From positions 1-36,803 of the forward strand of contig CAIPQK010000112.1 of the NCBI GenBank assembly GCA_903867185.1: 36,803 nucleotides of DNA. The letters are read 5' to 3'. The stretch is from an uncultured Candidatus Nemicrothrix sp. GTDB lineage: Bacteria > Actinomycetota > Acidimicrobiia > Acidimicrobiales > Acidimicrobilacustridaceae. Under the pieces are notes generated by a model. It searched no databases. It saw only the letters and a list, made by a program, of their open reading frames with translations, and had not been told where the DNA came from. The number at the start of each line of letters is the position of its first letter. Within the stretch, counting starts at the first letter, position 1. Shown one piece after another: positions 13,872 through 21,905 of this stretch. The position numbers were made by a program, and so were the translations under genes.

Positions 13872-15191
13872 TTACTCCATTGAGGGAAACACCCCGGGAA
13901 CGGAAGAATCCTTGTCTCCAGCCAGTTCCTCGCCGGCCAAGATCGATGCTCGCTCGATGGCCTCGGCCTCTTCCTCAGAGACCACTTCCTCGGTAGATCT
14001 TCGCAACGAGGGCCATGCCACCGCTGCAGTGATCAGACACGCAAGGCCACCTGTGATGTAGGTCGCCCTTGGGTCGATGTGCTGGCCAATCCAACCAATG
14101 ACCGGACCACCGATCGGCGTGGTTCCAATAATTGCCGTGATGTACAACGCCATCACGCGGCCGCGAACCGAGACGGGAGAGGTGAGTTGGAGTGTCGCCG
14201 AGTTCATCGTGATGAACGCGACGCTGCCACTTCCGACAAATAACAGAGCGATCGCCATTGTCCAGAACGTCGGCATGAACGCAGCGAGCAGCATCGTTGC
14301 CCCAAGGAAGGTCGCAGCGAAACCCAGTCGCCTGTGCGTCGCACGACCAAATCTTGCGATCAGTAGTCCCCCGGCGACTGAGCCAATGCCCATCATCGAT
14401 GACAGCACGCCATACCCGGTTGCTTCTCGATGAAACGTGAACCTGGCGAAAAGAGGAAGCGCGATCTGATTTTCGTAGGCGAGCATGCCAATCACGACGG
14501 TCATCAACATCGGGGTACGCAAACGCGGATCTGCCCAAACGACTTTCACGCCTTCGCGGATCTGCCCCTTCTCCCGTTTCACCGGAGCCTTCGGCACAAA
14601 CTCAGATCTACGCATCAGGAGAAGAGCAATCGAAATCCCGAGGAAACTGACCCCGTTCACCAAGAACGGCACCGCGAGTCCGAACGCTGCAATAAGAACA
14701 CCCGCAATCGCTGGTCCGAAGATACGGGCGATGTTGTTTGCAGTACTTCCGATCCCAACCGCGCTCGTGATGTCATCGGGTCCTACAAGTTCGTAGACAA
14801 ACGAGGAACGAATTGGCATATCGAATGCGTTAACGGTGCCGAAGGCCGCAGCAAGAGCGAACAAACTCCAGACCGAAATCGTGTCGGTGGCCACCATCAC
14901 ACCTAGTGCCGTCGCGATCGTTGCAGCGAGAACTTGGGTGATCTGCAACATGTGCCATCGGCTATGTCGATCGGCGAGTGTCCCGGCAAATGCGCCAAAG
15001 AGGAGCGTCGGGGTGAATTGCGCCGCACTCACGAGACCGAGCATTCCGCCGCTGCCAGTCACTTTGAGAACAAGCCAACCCATCGCGACGGTCTGCATCC
15101 AGGTTCCGGCTTGAGACTCAACTTGACCAGTGAGATACAAGCGAAAATTGCGATGGCGAAGAGCGGAGAACCCGCTGCCTTTATTTTTCAC
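13872..15191 (-). CDS. MFS transporter, EntS-like exporter family
   Basis: 439 residues with about 12 hydrophobic segments. It opens with FSALRHRNFRLYLTGQVESQAGTWMQTVAMGWLVL, split between a basic start and the first helix, which is typical of the MFS_3/enterobactin exporter (EntS) group, and carries the loop motif GTLADRHSRW (motif A) between helices 2 and 3. AFDMPIRSSFVYELVG is another signature of the group. Such proteins export small molecules using the proton gradient; the substrate is unknown. Its start overlaps the end of the MOT1-like transporter gene by 11 bp (15181-15191), so the two are one transcription unit. The last 40 residues are an acidic cytoplasmic tail. Confidence 0.85.
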   Translation of the reverse strand: MKNKGSGFSALRHRNFRLYLTGQVESQAGTWMQTVAMGWLVLKVTGSGGMLGLVSAAQFTPTLLFGAFAGTLADRHSRWHMLQITQVLAATIATALGVMVATDTISVWSLFALAAAFGTVNAFDMPIRSSFVYELVGPDDITSAVGIGSTANNIARIFGPAIAGVLIAAFGLAVPFLVNGVSFLGISIALLLMRRSEFVPKAPVKREKGQIREGVKVVWADPRLRTPMLMTVVIGMLAYENQIALPLFARFTFHREATGYGVLSSMMGIGSVAGGLLIARFGRATHRRLGFAATFLGATMLLAAFMPTFWTMAIALLFVGSGSVAFITMNSATLQLTSPVSVRGRVMALYITAIIGTTPIGGPVIGWIGQHIDPRATYITGGLACLITAAVAWPSLRRSTEEVVSEEEAEAIERASILAGEELAGDKDSSVPGVFPSME

Positions 15192-16353
15192 AAGTGATCC
15201 GCTTGTTGCTTCGAGCTGTGCGAATCCGAGAAACCACTATTGGAGCCTGCGCCACGACCAGAGCAATCGCAGTTGTATACGCAAGGTTCGAAGTCCAAAT
15301 ACCGACAGCTGCGGCTGCTACTGCAATTGCGATCTGCAGCGGCGCAAGGTCGAGGACCAGTAATGCGTGACGAATTCCGGCATAGGCGAGAAAGCCTCCA
15401 AGGATCCCTACCGGTAAGAGCCCAAACATTTCTAGAACTTGATCTGAGAAAAATATGCCAAGCGTGACGAGCACTCCGCCCAGCATTGCGTTCATTTTCC
15501 AGGTCTGTGCCCCCATACGAACATGAGCGGAAAGCCCGCTTGATCCGTGACACATCGGCATTCCCCCAAATGTTGCCGACACCACATTCCCCAATCCACA
15601 AACCAACGCAACCCTCGCCGGCGAAACGCGATCGGCGCGTTCCCCAAATTGCTGATGAGCCAGGTCGCTGACGCCGACAACAGCGTTGCCATAGGTCAAC
15701 GGGATCTGCGGGATCACGAGCAAGACAAATGCGGTGCCAAAAACTGACCAAGGAGGAAACGAAAATGTCGGGAGATCGATTGACGGCCCGCCAAATGACG
15801 GTTGCTCAACCAACAATGTCACGATCACGCCAACGACGACGAGCACAATGCTCAAGACATACCAACGTCGCCACGCGGCAATCATGACCAGGCCAACCGT
15901 GAGTGCTGCGAGTAACAGGCCCGTTCTCGACGACGGTGAGTGCACGAAAACCGCTGGTGGTTTGAGCACCAACTTCACGGCAGTCACCACCAACAACCAC
16001 CCCACACCAAACTGCAAAGCGCGGATTACGGGTTTCGTGAACAACTTGGAAAGCCATGTGGCGAGTCCCGTCAAGGACATGGCGAGCAGCACCACCCCGA
16101 TTTCGAGACCCGCGGCATGGATCACATCCGGGGCAAGGTGCTGAGCCACTGCGAGAGCAGTCAGGGCCTTGAGCGGCTGCACGGGGAAGGGAATCTGAAA
16201 TACCAATCCGGCGGTCACGACGAGGAGGCCGGCCATGAGAAGTACCGAACCGACATCGAGACCGTTGACCACCACAAGGGCAGCCGTCAGTGGAACCAAA
16301 ATTCCGAGATCGGCCAGTGCCCCCGAGACGTCTCCGGTGATGGTGCGAGTCAC
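15181..16353 (-). CDS. MOT1-type molybdate/sulfate transporter
   Basis: 390 residues, highly hydrophobic, with both signature segments of the MOT1 family: GALADLGILVPLT near residues 11-23 and FPVQPLKALTALA near 56-68. A third SGLSAHVRMG and MPMCHGSSG region corresponds to the second anion-binding repeat of the SulP-like fold. These proteins take up molybdate, or sometimes sulfate, across the cytoplasmic membrane. The GTG start is 6 nt behind TAGTTT (minus strand), suggesting leaderless transcription. It heads an operon with the MFS transporter. Uptake of molybdate is inferred from the family only. Confidence 0.85.
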   Translation of the reverse strand: MTRTITGDVSGALADLGILVPLTAALVVVNGLDVGSVLLMAGLLVVTAGLVFQIPFPVQPLKALTALAVAQHLAPDVIHAAGLEIGVVLLAMSLTGLATWLSKLFTKPVIRALQFGVGWLLVVTAVKLVLKPPAVFVHSPSSRTGLLLAALTVGLVMIAAWRRWYVLSIVLVVVGVIVTLLVEQPSFGGPSIDLPTFSFPPWSVFGTAFVLLVIPQIPLTYGNAVVGVSDLAHQQFGERADRVSPARVALVCGLGNVVSATFGGMPMCHGSSGLSAHVRMGAQTWKMNAMLGGVLVTLGIFFSDQVLEMFGLLPVGILGGFLAYAGIRHALLVLDLAPLQIAIAVAAAAVGIWTSNLAYTTAIALVVAQAPIVVSRIRTARSNKRITCEK

Positions 16354-16359
16354 GGATCG

Positions 16360-16365
16360 AAACTA
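16360..16365 (-). promoter_or_regulatory. Candidate -10 box, leaderless MOT1-like gene
   Basis: TAGTTT on the minus strand ends 6 nt before the GTG at 16353. No ribosome site lies between. Confidence 0.4.
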
Positions 16366-16417
16366 GACGAGGTCCCAGTTCCGGGCCGCTACCCAGCCCA
16401 GCCCCCTTAATGGGGAA

Positions 16418-16448
16418 TTGTCCGCTTAGGCCGGCGGCCGGATAGGGT
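16418..16448 (+). promoter_or_regulatory. Candidate promoter for the structured leader / SNF2 gene
   Basis: TTGTCC at 16418-16423 and TAGGGT at 16443-16448 are separated by 19 bp, predicting a start near 16455. This places about 250 nt of transcript before the helicase start codon. Confidence 0.45.
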
Positions 16449-16454
16449 GGTCCT

Positions 16455-16690
16455 ACCGATCTGGGCCGCGAAGAAGTGTTCGCAGCCCGGTTGGGCGGAT
16501 GAAGACGACGGTGGTTGAAGCAGGCCAACGGAGATCTTTGTCGCTCTGGGCTTCCCCATTCCGCCTAGGGCAGCAGGACACGTAGCAGCCGGTTTCCTCG
16601 TGGGTGAGGGGCGGAGTGTTGCGGAGCATGACCGGTGCCGACAGGGGATCAGGCACCACGAGCGGACGCACAGGTTGCGTTTGCACGAAA
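16455..16690 (+). ncRNA. Unidentified structured RNA or long 5' leader upstream of the SNF2 helicase
   Basis: The 352-bp gap 16354-16705 holds no convincing gene but many paired segments. Seen directly: a long hairpin at 16461-16490 (CTGGGC...GCCCGG outside, GCGAA/TTCGC inside, 6-nt loop); an 8-bp long-range pairing of 16492-16499 with 16560-16567 enclosing GAAGC/GCTTC (16517-16521 with 16550-16554); GGTGCC/GGCACC (16634-16639 with 16652-16657); CTCGTGG/CCACGAG (16597-16603 with 16656-16662), which competes with the previous helix for two bases; and ACGCA/TGCGT (16666-16670 with 16676-16680). I could not match it to RNase P, tmRNA, SRP, cobalamin, SAM, ZTP or Moco RNAs. It could be a riboswitch-like leader of the helicase gene or an independent small RNA. 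Confidence 0.4.
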
Positions 16691-16705
16691 CCACCAAGGA
16701 CGTTT

Positions 16706-19700
16706 GTGCCTCAAGACGACGAGATCGAACAGATCGAAACAACTGAGCCGGCTGCGGCAAGTTCCAACGCGCCCTCAATCGATGTGCACGGCGCTCGCTT
16801 TGAGACGCTCGTCGAATCGGCCGCATGGGGCGAAGCCTCTGCCGAAGATCTTGCGATTCTCGAGGCCCACAACGCCGCATGGCAACGTGTTCTTGTCGAA
16901 CGACTGAACGACACCGACGAAGCTCTTGACCGGTTGCGTTTGCGCCGGTCACCTGACGATCAACAAGTCATTGCCGACCTCGAGAACGAACAGCGCAAAC
17001 TCGAACTCGCCCTCGATCGCCTTTTGGGAATCGAACCCGAAGTCGGAGAACTCACCCCTGGTGTTAACGCGCTGCAACTTTCTTGGGTAACCGGCCGCCT
17101 CGTGGCATGGCTCGGAGGCCCCGATGCGCCGCCGACAACCGTTGAACAGCTTCGCACGTTCCTCGCAGCAACCGATGCTCCAGAAATGTGGGGCGGCCGT
17201 TCGCCCGTCACGCTTCCAAGTGGGGAAAAGACCGTTGCGCTCGAAGCCAACACGAGCGATGTTCTCGGTTGGTTGCTCGCACTTTCCGCAGACCCACCCG
17301 AAGAGGAGATCGGTCCCTCCGCTCGGTGGATGTCAATCGTTGCCGCATGGGCGGTTTCTCTCGCTGCACGAGGCGCAATGATCCCGACGTTGCGACGCTC
17401 ACGTACCGGTCGACGCAACCAAAGTCGAAGTGCATTCGGCGTCACATGGCAGCCAGCTCTTATCGACTCCGAACGACTTCGCGTCATCGGCGATGCAATG
17501 CCCGGAGCAGTCGCTGCGCTTTCACCTTCGGTCGACGGGGCCACAATGACTCGCTCTGTCCTCGCGGAAGTTGTCGATGTCATTTGCTTCGATGCAGCCC
17601 GCCGCGTCGAAGTTCCGGCTGCTCCCGATGACCCCAAAACAATTGCTGCTGCTGCCGAGTCATTCCTTGCTCGTCTCGACGGAACTGCATTCGAGGTTCC
17701 TGCAGGAATCGCCGGAGAACTCACCAACTCAATTGAACGCTGGGCCACACCGGTTCTCTCGCGCAACTACCGCCCACTCATCGTGCAGCTCGATCCCCCC
17801 GATTCTGGCGATGCGTGGCATCTCGCCGTTTTTGCTCCCGGCAAGGGCGAACAACTCACCCCCGTTGAAGTTGCGCTCGTGAATGCCGGCAACCAACGAC
17901 GCGAACTCGAAGGAAACCTTGTTCGCCTTGAACGTCTCTATCCGCCACTTATGCGTCCAGGCAGTATGCGGCGCGGCGAAGTCGTGCTCAGTCAAGAAGA
18001 AGCATGGGAATTGATGTCCAAAGTCGGACTCGTTCTTGCCGATGCCGGTTTCGAGATGCGTGTGCCGGCGCTCTCACGCCGCAAGGCCACTCCATCACTG
18101 CGCATCTTCGCTGAATCGAACGGGGAAACCTCCGTCGGTGCTCACCAACTCGCGAACGTCAGTTGGACAGCAGTCTTCGACGACATCGAACTCACCGCAG
18201 CCGATATCGCGCGTCTAGCGAAAGAAGCACGCCCCTTAGTTCGCGCCAACGGACGATGGGTCGCACTTGATCACGCCGATCTTGCTGCAGCAGCAGAAGC
18301 ATTAGCCGAGCGAGCAAAGAAGCCACAGATGACCGGCGCAGAAATGTTGCGTCAGGCACTCGGTCTCGACGGTTCTCCGCTTGCTGGTGGCGTTTCCATC
18401 GACGGTTCGGGTTGGGCAGCCGACCTCATGGCCAAGGCATCGACTGCATCACTTGCCCCGGCATCGAATCCCGACGGATTCAAGGGTGAACTTCGCAGCT
18501 ATCAGGCCGACGCATTGGCATGGCTGAAATTCCTCGACACCACCAGCCTTGGGGGTTGCCTTGCCCTCGACATGGGCCTCGGTAAGACACCAACAATTCT
18601 CGCCCATCTCGTCGACAGCATCAGTGACGCGCCTTCACTTGTCATTGCACCCCCCGCCGTTGTCGGCAACTGGGCTGCCGAAGCCCGTCGTTTCACTCCT
18701 GAACTTTCGGTGGTCGTTCACCACGGTGTTGGGCGTGCCGATCACGAAGAAATCGCCGAAGAAGTTGCGCGAGCCGACGTCGTCATCACCACGTACGGAA
18801 CAGCAGTGCGCGATATCGAGGCACTCGAGAAAATCACATGGGGCCGAATCATCCTTGATGAAGCACAAGCCATCAAGAACCCGGCAAACGAAACTGCCCA
18901 GCAACTTCGCCGTCTGAATGCATCATCGCGACTCGCGCTCACCGGAACTCCGATCGAAAATGGATTAGGCGATCTTTGGGCAATTCTCGATTTCACCAAT
19001 CCCGGCCTCGTCGGTCCTCGGCCTCAATTCATTGCGCAACTTTCGGCCACTGGCGCTACCGGTCGCGACCAAGGCGAACGTGCACTTCGCGCCCTCAATG
19101 GCATCCTCGTCTTCCGACGCACGAAGTCTGAACCTGCGATTGCGGCAGAGCTTCCCGACCGCATCGATGAACTTGACCATTGCTCGATGACTCCTGAACA
19201 GATCGGCCTCTATCAAGCAGTGCTCGACAGTCTTGTCACCGGAGCAGCCCTCGAATCAGGTGCCGACAGTCGCAACGGTCGCATCCTTGCTGCCATCACT
19301 GCTCTCAAACAGATCTGTAACCATCCCGTCGCCTATCGGCATGACGATGGCCCGCTCGATGGACGCTCAGGGAAACTTGCTCGCCTCGAAGAAATCATCG
19401 AACAGGTATACGCCGCTGGCGAGCGCGCACTGGTGTTCACACACTTTGCCGAGTGGGGCCAGAAACTCGCCGAACATCTCTCCACGCGTTTCGACAATCC
19501 AGTCGGCTGCTACCACGGTGGCCAGTCACGCGGTGCTCGCGATCAACTTGTTGCCGACTTCCAGGCACTCGAAGGCCCTGGCACTCTCGTGCTTTCACTG
19601 AAGGCTGGCGGAACCGGCCTTAATCTCACCAATGCCAACCACGTCATCTTGTATGACCGCTGGTGGAATCCTGCGGTAGAAGATCAGGCACGCGACCGCG

Positions 19701-19933
19701 CGTGGCGAATTGGGCAGGACAAAACGGTGATTGCGCATCGTCTCGTGTGTCCCGGCACTGTCGATGAGCGAGTCGAGGAAGTCGTGGCCGGCAAGCGCCA
19801 CATCGCCGATCTCGTTCTTCCTAAATCCAGTTCGCTCGGCGATCTCGATTCCAATCAGTTGCAAACCGCGCTTGGCTTGCGTGCCGATGAACTCCTGTCC
19901 GATACCGATGACCTCGAGGGGAGCCTCACATGA
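16706..19933 (+). CDS. SNF2 family DEAD/DEAH-box helicase
   Basis: About 1075 residues. The C-terminal half is a full SNF2 ATPase: motif I DMGLGKTPT (Lys near 626), DEAQAIKNP motif II (about 718), LTGTPIENGLGDLW motif III, and the C-lobe signatures GGTGLNLTNANHVILYDRWWNP and DQARDRAWRIGQ. The N-terminal 550 residues are alpha/beta regions with low similarity, as in bacterial SNF2 proteins of actinobacteria (HelZ-like). These proteins translocate on duplex DNA and remodel nucleoprotein complexes; some belong to defence islands, but no such neighbours are seen here. GTG 16706 is chosen for the AAGGA 5 nt upstream; the frame stays open to 16604, through the structured leader. It overlaps the next gene by ATGA. 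Confidence 0.9.
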   Translation: MPQDDEIEQIETTEPAAASSNAPSIDVHGARFETLVESAAWGEASAEDLAILEAHNAAWQRVLVERLNDTDEALDRLRLRRSPDDQQVIADLENEQRKLELALDRLLGIEPEVGELTPGVNALQLSWVTGRLVAWLGGPDAPPTTVEQLRTFLAATDAPEMWGGRSPVTLPSGEKTVALEANTSDVLGWLLALSADPPEEEIGPSARWMSIVAAWAVSLAARGAMIPTLRRSRTGRRNQSRSAFGVTWQPALIDSERLRVIGDAMPGAVAALSPSVDGATMTRSVLAEVVDVICFDAARRVEVPAAPDDPKTIAAAAESFLARLDGTAFEVPAGIAGELTNSIERWATPVLSRNYRPLIVQLDPPDSGDAWHLAVFAPGKGEQLTPVEVALVNAGNQRRELEGNLVRLERLYPPLMRPGSMRRGEVVLSQEEAWELMSKVGLVLADAGFEMRVPALSRRKATPSLRIFAESNGETSVGAHQLANVSWTAVFDDIELTAADIARLAKEARPLVRANGRWVALDHADLAAAAEALAERAKKPQMTGAEMLRQALGLDGSPLAGGVSIDGSGWAADLMAKASTASLAPASNPDGFKGELRSYQADALAWLKFLDTTSLGGCLALDMGLGKTPTILAHLVDSISDAPSLVIAPPAVVGNWAAEARRFTPELSVVVHHGVGRADHEEIAEEVARADVVITTYGTAVRDIEALEKITWGRIILDEAQAIKNPANETAQQLRRLNASSRLALTGTPIENGLGDLWAILDFTNPGLVGPRPQFIAQLSATGATGRDQGERALRALNGILVFRRTKSEPAIAAELPDRIDELDHCSMTPEQIGLYQAVLDSLVTGAALESGADSRNGRILAAITALKQICNHPVAYRHDDGPLDGRSGKLARLEEIIEQVYAAGERALVFTHFAEWGQKLAEHLSTRFDNPVGCYHGGQSRGARDQLVADFQALEGPGTLVLSLKAGGTGLNLTNANHVILYDRWWNPAVEDQARDRAWRIGQDKTVIAHRLVCPGTVDERVEEVVAGKRHIADLVLPKSSSLGDLDSNQLQTALGLRADELLSDTDDLEGSLT

Positions 19934-20220
19934 GCCGATCACGCCGCCGTCCGGCAACCGGGGTCCAGAAGAAACAGACCGCCGATCGCCTTGCCGCCCA
20001 AAAGTTCTGGGGAGAAGCGTTCCCAGACGATCCCGCTTTGGTGCGAATGTCCACCGATCCTTCGGGAATGGTGCTCTCTCTCGGCGATCCCCCACTCCGA
20101 ACGATCGAACCCACAGCACAGCAAACCTTCGTTCTCGTGTACCACCGAGCAGCGCAGATGGCGATGCTCGCAGCCACTGCCGCTGGCCTCGACGCCGACC
20201 CCTTAGGCGAAGCGTTCTAG
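19930..20220 (+). CDS. Small hypothetical protein coupled to the SNF2 helicase
   Basis: 96 residues, starting within the helicase stop (ATGA, 19930-19933). The N-terminus is very basic (MSRSRRRPATGVQKKQTADRL), followed by a compact region with FWGEAFPDDPALVRMSTDPSGMVLSLG and an Ala-rich helix ending MLAATAAGLDADPLGEAF. No family is recognised. Mycobacterial SNF2 helicases often neighbour a SWIM zinc-finger protein; this one has no cysteines at all and is not that partner. The tight coupling and basic start suggest a nucleic-acid or helicase accessory factor (inference). The guaB1 start follows 21 bp later. Confidence 0.7.
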   Translation: MSRSRRRPATGVQKKQTADRLAAQKFWGEAFPDDPALVRMSTDPSGMVLSLGDPPLRTIEPTAQQTFVLVYHRAAQMAMLAATAAGLDADPLGEAF

Positions 20221-21681
<1,461 letters not shown>

Positions 21682-21735
21682 CTCGCGAAACCCTTTGTGA
21701 CAAGGGTCATTGTGACTGCTGACCGGCAAAATCAC

Positions 21736-21765
21736 TTGGGCTCATCGGCGCGCGTCCCGTAGCAT
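21736..21765 (+). promoter_or_regulatory. Candidate promoter of the 6C RNA
   Basis: TTGGGC at 21736-21741 and TAGCAT at 21760-21765 with an 18-bp spacer predict a start near 21772, two bases before the first stem of the RNA. This fits a free-standing small RNA rather than a guaB1 3' UTR. Confidence 0.5.
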
Positions 21766-21771
21766 TTCTGT

Positions 21772-21883
21772 ATCGGCTCTGGGAATCCCCCCTCCCATCG
21801 AGCCGGTTGGCCGAAACAGAACTTTGGTTCTGCCGGCCGTGCGACACCCCCGCCATCCCCCCGGCTGGGGGTGTTTGCGTTTT
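21772..21883 (+). ncRNA. 6C RNA
   Basis: Two hairpins carry the same loop ATCCCCCC, the defining feature of the actinobacterial 6C RNA. Hairpin 1: CGGCTC (21774-21779) with GAGCCG (21800-21805), then TGGGA with TCCCA across a 2-nt bulge, loop at 21785-21792. Hairpin 3: ACACCCCC (21844-21851) with GGGGGTGT (21867-21874), inner GCC/GGC, loop at 21855-21862. Between them is a third stem, GGCCG/CGGCC plus CAGAAC/GTTCTG with loop TTTG (21809-21838). The last hairpin runs into TTTGCGTTTT and so also works as terminator. Function of 6C RNAs is not well established. Confidence 0.88.
21844..21883 (+). terminator. Rho-independent terminator, 3' hairpin of the 6C RNA
   Basis: An 8-bp GC-rich stem (ACACCCCC/GGGGGTGT) with an inner GCC/GGC helix is followed directly by a T-rich tail ending at 21883. 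It would also stop any guaB1 read-through before the convergent hydrolase gene. Confidence 0.75.
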
Positions 21884-21905
21884 GCGGCACTACAACAGAG
21901 CTGAA

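Follow-up and report, generated by a model that had tools for sequence, protein, structure and literature searches.

The described systems closest to the element analysed here are the structured cis-regulatory leaders of mRNAs, riboswitches and protein-binding leaders alike, the Ms1 RNA (RF02566) and the T-box. With the structured cis-regulatory leaders, the leader in front of the SNF2 gene shares its 5' position, an apparent promoter of its own, covarying helices, a probable pseudoknot and closeness to the ribosome-binding site; it differs from them in matching no known family and in preceding an unusual class of gene, which codes for an SNF2/DUF3670 ATPase. Ms1 is alike in being a structured RNA of actinobacteria, but its match to the SNF2 leader spans 80 nt and skips most of the model. 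As to the T-box, the hairpin called P3 below carries in some relatives (the second clade) a GGGUGG-like string resembling the T-box antiterminator. We rejected a T-box identity, since there is no T-box match at the Rfam gathering score, the string is missing from P3 in the clade of the window and neither an amino-acid gene nor a tRNA gene follows. Titles and abstract openings in the literature describe no SNF2 leader RNA and gave nothing for Microthrix together with riboswitch; among the matches listed, they contain no SNF2 term and never name the Acidimicrobiia. We regard the leader as a new and narrowly distributed RNA of the structured-mRNA-leader kind, outside every Rfam family tested.

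The window, i.e. the whole stretch of 36,803 nucleotides that was analysed, corresponds to contig C112 in an assembly of 232 contigs (genome G000). In it, about 350 bases separate a MOT1-type gene from the divergent SNF2/DUF3670 ATPase gene, whose product has its top NCBIfam match, under the cut-off, in the SCO1167/SCO6262 helicase family. The leader measures about 250 nt, and its 3' end is formed by the Shine-Dalgarno sequence and the GTG (16706) of the SNF2 gene. The features referred to in the following, with pairing given for the 11 sequences of the window's clade, are:

15181-16353, minus strand: MOT1-type molybdate transporter gene, divergent from the SNF2 gene
16418-16448, plus strand: promoter-like pair TTGTCC (16418-16423) and TAGGGT (16443-16448) with a 19-nt spacer
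16456-16494, plus strand: predicted hairpin H1 of the window's clade, the first past the presumed start of transcription; 97.4% of cells paired, one both-side change
16498-16542, plus strand: predicted hairpin P2 with outer strands GAUGA..UUGUC and an inner stem at 16509-16530, abutting P3; 2 of 12 pairs kept through double changes
16543-16571, plus strand: predicted hairpin P3 with a C-rich loop; 100% of cells paired
16553-16557, plus strand: 5' strand UCCCC of the probable pseudoknot, in the P3 loop; partner GGGGA at 16644-16648
16581-16623, plus strand: predicted accessory hairpin P4 of the window's clade; 98.9% of cells paired, A-U changed to G-C at one pair in 5 of 11
16634-16657, plus strand: predicted hairpin P5 with a G-rich loop; 100% of cells paired, no both-side change
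16644-16648, plus strand: 3' strand GGGGA of the probable pseudoknot, in the P5 loop; complementarity kept across clades
16659-16687, plus strand: predicted hairpin P6, just 5' of the ribosome-binding site; three pairs changed on both sides
16696-16711, plus strand: Shine-Dalgarno AAGGA and a weak predicted hairpin with the GTG start (AGGAC..GU-GCCU); pairs invariant in the 11
16706-19933, plus strand: SNF2-family ATPase gene preceded by the leader (Pfam SNF2-rel_dom, DUF3670 and Helicase_C)

Leaders at the matching place are found in 19 loci of 18 genomes, all from two Microthrixaceae genera (g1 and g4). In all 19 loci whose SNF2 5' region was recovered, the leader lies between the putative promoter and the start codon of this one gene family, a linkage which the comparison of loci establishes at the level of sequence. 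In a DNA search of 41 genomes, the region was present in 10 of 21 of the genus (own genome counted) and in none of the 20 others. The window and ten copies, 76-95% identical to it, make up the window's clade, for which an 11-sequence alignment (A3) runs from the promoter into the SNF2 start and conservation extends to AAGGA and the GTG. An SNF2 search of 37 family genomes added a second clade of eight loci (six in g1, two in g4), in which SNF2 is 76-80% identical and the leaders have no DNA match to that of the window. Outside the 19 stand G018 and G016, with later SNF2 parts only, and G005, G014 and G017, with no SNF2 match. Raw identity (leader 77-94%, SNF2 81-91%, next gap 77-93%) is equal in the leader and in the neighbouring genes and gaps, so that conservation alone was discarded as evidence. 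Some of the genus members (L028, L035, L043, L046) are deposited as 'Bifidobacterium breve' (e.g. CAMAYJ010000060.1), a label that is almost surely wrong for these Microthrixaceae-like MAGs.

The preliminary description had proposed a promoter-like TTGTCC/TAGGGT pair and no convincing reading frame before 16706, and both proposals agree with the comparison. The two boxes are present and their 19-nt spacing is identical in 19 of 19 related loci. The -10 box, which was located by pattern, reads TAGRGT in 18 loci and TAAGGT in one; 25 bases ahead of it stands TTG in 18 loci and GTG in one, and this trinucleotide was not selected by pattern. A sigma-70 scan with spacers of 16-18 nt does not list the pair. 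Between the -10 box and the SNF2 GTG, the window's clade has 256-259 bases and the second clade 189-282. Since the upstream gene is MOT1 in 6 of the 19 loci and modC-like in the other 13, the putative promoter has been kept in place despite exchange of the preceding gene. With regard to coding capacity, the leader contains no conserved reading frame: variable columns of the 11-sequence alignment distribute over the codon phases as 39/34/37, i.e. without phase, indels break the frame, and Pfam gives no match for two opposite-strand ORFs spanning the region. The comparison therefore indicates a non-coding leader. The SNF2 frame itself is open upstream as far as a GTG at 16604. Among the ten of 11 copies in which this place can be located (window included), it is in frame in six and shifted in four, and for this reason 16706 was kept as the best SNF2 start.

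Next to the leader, one molybdate transporter gene has replaced another in place: it is MOT1 and divergent in 6 of 19 loci and modC-like and codirectional in 13. A second contig in the bin of the window's genome (C125; L014, 1-2865) carries modABC and, beyond it at the contig end, 119 bases that match the start of the leader exactly; this fragment perhaps reflects strain variation or an assembly branch.

Folded as a single sequence, the leader of the window exceeds chance only mildly (z -2.0; 9 of 200 shuffles did equally well), and the opposite strand (z -0.9) and two relatives folded singly (z -1.2 and -1.4) give weaker values. For the 11 sequences RNAalifold predicts six main hairpins, with a further small hairpin at the start codon. 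Once the loop-loop pairing is included, 98.5% of 790 cells are paired; sliding one strand lowers this to 34-47%, and redealing the letters gives 96.9%. Eight pairs are changed on both sides; such changes occupy 20 cells, against 9.3 in shuffles, and the covariation score is 0.194 against 0.161, with none of 500 shuffles reaching either observed value. By contrast, 77 of 500 shuffles matched the count of doubly changed pairs and 365 of 500 that of pair types, and the structure scored in this way had been derived from the same alignment. Covariation, for which the relatives were checked with pair counts and shuffles, is thus found in the leader, with some measures not beating their controls. The pairs of the Shine-Dalgarno/start hairpin are invariant in the 11 sequences and therefore uninformative by themselves; in short-segment folds of 18 of the 19 loci, the Shine-Dalgarno sequence pairs with the region of the start codon, at -2.0 to -3.9 kcal/mol.

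The structure conservation index of the leader is 0.902 (column-shuffle z -5.5), against 0.49-0.81 (z -2.1 to +0.5) in 14 coding segments of similar identity, 0.46 (z +1.2) in a gap containing a small ORF, and 0.77 (z -2.5) on the weaker reverse strand of the leader; a convergent gap (21682-21890, five sequences) is with 0.79 and z -4.6 nearly as structured as the leader. This control comprised 17 segments with up to 7 sequences from 6 genomes, and its column shuffle does not preserve dinucleotides. One of the two control gaps holds a small ORF and the other has structure of its own, which in practice leaves coding DNA as the control. Taken by comparison among the relatives, the predicted hairpins of the leader are conserved, and both conserved structure and covariation are clear. 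The two competing helices of the preliminary description fared differently: the proposed expression-platform alternative CUCGUGG/CCACGAG, the sole one examined, has one mismatch in 4 of 11 sequences and never covaries, which leaves the switch unsupported. Nor was GGUGGU/ACCACC confirmed, the helix that closes the minimum-energy fold; it pairs 6/6 in the window only and 2-5/6 in the other ten, and it overlaps the -10 box.

In the second clade, the hairpins P2 and P3 are kept, and the place of P2 is taken by a hairpin of different sequence. Folded alone, the P3 segment forms its hairpin in 19 of 19 loci and the P2 segment, whose length was set by hand per subgroup, in 18 (the exception is G049); in those 18, P2 ends at P3 or one base short of it. 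Its sequence reads GAUGA..UCAUC in one clade and GAUGGG..CUCGUC, AUGGA..UCCAU or GUGA..UCAC in the other. MAFFT misplaced strands in alignments A6 (P2-P3, both clades) and A7 (second clade), which were dropped, and the two clades were counted separately. Applied to six sequences of the second clade, RNAalifold yields P2 and P3, with three doubly changed pairs that all lie in P2. With four full-length leaders as input, its prediction comprises a 5' hairpin with covariation, P2, and a long-range UCCCC/GGGGA pairing in place of P3, together with an unlikely helix between -10 and Shine-Dalgarno; the program cannot draw knots, so that the long-range helix appears instead of P3 and not alongside it. 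Seven second-clade leaders folded singly reach z -1.7 to +0.5.

The long-range pairing points to a probable pseudoknot between the loops of P3 and P5. Its 5' strand is UCCCC in 18 of 19 loci, and the core forms 5/5 pairs at a fixed register in 17; of the exceptions, G007 carries a single mismatch, and in G013 a one-base shift improves the pairing, as judged by eye. The second-clade loci pair at 6-8 of 8 positions, and five of the eight loci do so at all eight (CGGUCCCC/GGGGACCG). There is hardly any covariation in the pseudoknot: its core is nearly invariant, and its extension is present or absent by clade. Because the local P3 fold of the second clade takes some of the C-run into the stem, loop-loop pairing would need those pairs opened. 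The block CACCAC after P5 was rejected as a general invariant, being present in 10 of 19 loci (6 of 11 in the window's clade and 4 of 8 in the second).

Against the 4227 families of Rfam 15, the window gives no match at gathering cut-offs, and the same holds for 16 related loci, second-clade leaders among them, and for 20 SNF2 loci of the order. A relaxed scan of 16350-16760 gives Ms1 as its sole match, at 9 bits compared with a cut-off of 162 (E 4.5). RNase P RNA was rejected as an identity, as the one match of the genome sits elsewhere (G000:C57, 240.8 bits). The covariance model of the window's clade (R1) detects 11 strong loci in 10 of 99 genomes, one per genome in nine of them and two in G001, and all are model-building members. 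Besides these, five weak matches in other genera (E 0.014-0.088) were judged to be chance, and weak matches at the right place occur in second-clade G004 and G003 (E 0.019 and 0.033). The model of the second clade (R2) gives four strong matches in 397 genomes of the order, all from model-building genomes; at 28-31 bits it finds G023 at the right place and six matches in other genera, which mark that score range as background. G023 and G049 were assigned also by position and direct sequence identity. R2 matches at the right place in four window's-clade loci are likewise at background level (E 0.8-1.9), and within the family R2 has three matches in the window's genome, none at the window's leader. 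Each clade's model detects the other clade at background level only.

SNF2 relatives (E up to 1e-60) are present in 96 of 148 genomes of the order, and many of them sit well downstream of a TANNNT box. An order-wide folded leader was nevertheless rejected: at 35 loci the mean z of the leaders is -0.64, compared with -0.08 for upstream DNA (p 0.07) and -0.70 for coding DNA (p 0.80). Since there is no such folding excess and neither R1 nor R2 finds a convincing copy at SNF2 loci of other families, we make no claim at the level of the order. Long leaders were also observed at SNF2 loci L106, L107, L109 and L110, L112 and L125, L137, L142, L145 and L146, as well as L136, L143 and L148. By eye, leaders in f45, f30, f35 and f10 share strings within family or genus, and GGCGGAGCGGC occurs in three of the four f45 SNF2 leaders; Rfam gives no match in L106, L107, L109, L110, L112 and L125. 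It is possible that these other-family leaders of the Acidimicrobiales are separate leader RNAs.

Based on our data, the 5' leader is real, structured and narrowly distributed, and the preliminary description holds in proposing a leader element upstream of the SNF2 helicase: no known Rfam class matches it at the gathering cut-off and its helices covary in relatives. The same description left the choice between a leader and a small RNA. A stand-alone RNA, 6S/Ms1-like or otherwise trans-acting, encoded before SNF2 and released by processing, would have its own promoter and a compact multi-hairpin fold, as is predicted here, and Ms1 is the sole match listed at the relaxed threshold. Against this stand the very low score of that match, the one strong locus per genome in all but G001 of the R1 genomes, as well as the lack of a terminator-like site in the leader, the conservation that continues into the ribosome-binding site and start codon, and the position directly before SNF2 in 19 of 19 loci. 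For these last three reasons a leader is preferred, and we consider a free small RNA quite unlikely. Control of molybdate uptake would fit the neighbouring gene, a transporter gene in all 19 loci (modC-like in 13, MOT1 in 6), but the leader is directed away from MOT1 or located after modC, has its own putative promoter and remains with SNF2 when the transporter is exchanged (modABC vs MOT1); such a role appears very improbable. An ordinary conserved 5' UTR, whose hairpins protect or insulate the mRNA without regulating it, agrees with the variation of the accessory hairpins between clades, with the sole alternative fold examined not being conserved and with CACCAC in barely more than half of the loci. 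The specific loop-loop complementarity, retained while most of the sequence changes, argues against it, and we hold this explanation to be conceivable but doubtful.

The absence of a terminator-like site, the conservation up to AAGGA and GTG and the Shine-Dalgarno hairpin predicted in 18 of 19 loci make a leader that tunes SNF2 translation the simplest reading. With moderate confidence, we propose a structured 5' leader of about 250 nt that has its own promoter, reads into the SNF2/DUF3670 gene and acts in cis; control of SNF2 translation would be its most likely function. The RNA would start at this promoter and read through the leader into the gene. In its core, P2 would stand beside P3, whose loop UCCCC would pair with the loop GGGGA of P5, followed by P6 and the Shine-Dalgarno sequence. 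This P2-P3-P5 core may be a sensor or a protein-binding site, and its folding could set, via P6 and the weak Shine-Dalgarno/start hairpin, how often the SNF2 mRNA is translated. The trigger might be a ligand, a protein (possibly the SNF2 product itself) or a condition. A bolder version, in which a new class of pseudoknotted leader RNA autoregulates a SNF2/RapA-type ATPase and the kissing P3/P5 loops sense the ATPase or its condition and gate translation, strikes us as unlikely; under it, since SNF2 genes in other Acidimicrobiales families likewise lie well downstream of promoter-like boxes with leaders particular to each family, control of the ATPase by RNA might extend beyond these two genera. 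If the leader acts in cis, it would connect RNA-based control with a bacterial ATPase that resembles chromatin remodellers, and would offer a handle on the signals to which the SNF2 ATPase answers. Since its spread is limited to two genera, the claim stays modest.

Downstream of the leader and its gene, two further observations concern the same window. Between SNF2 and IMPDH lies a small ORF (19930-20220, 96 aa, ATG) that has no match in Pfam and NCBIfam; across six related loci, the gap carrying it shows 77-93% identity. The convergent genes for IMPDH and a dienelactone hydrolase are separated by a strongly structured gap (21682-21905), with z -3.3 for the single sequence and, for five aligned sequences, z -4.6 on one strand and -4.5 on the other. 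This gap contains a terminator-like CACCCCC..GGGGGUG with a T-rich tail and exceeds a plain terminator in size.
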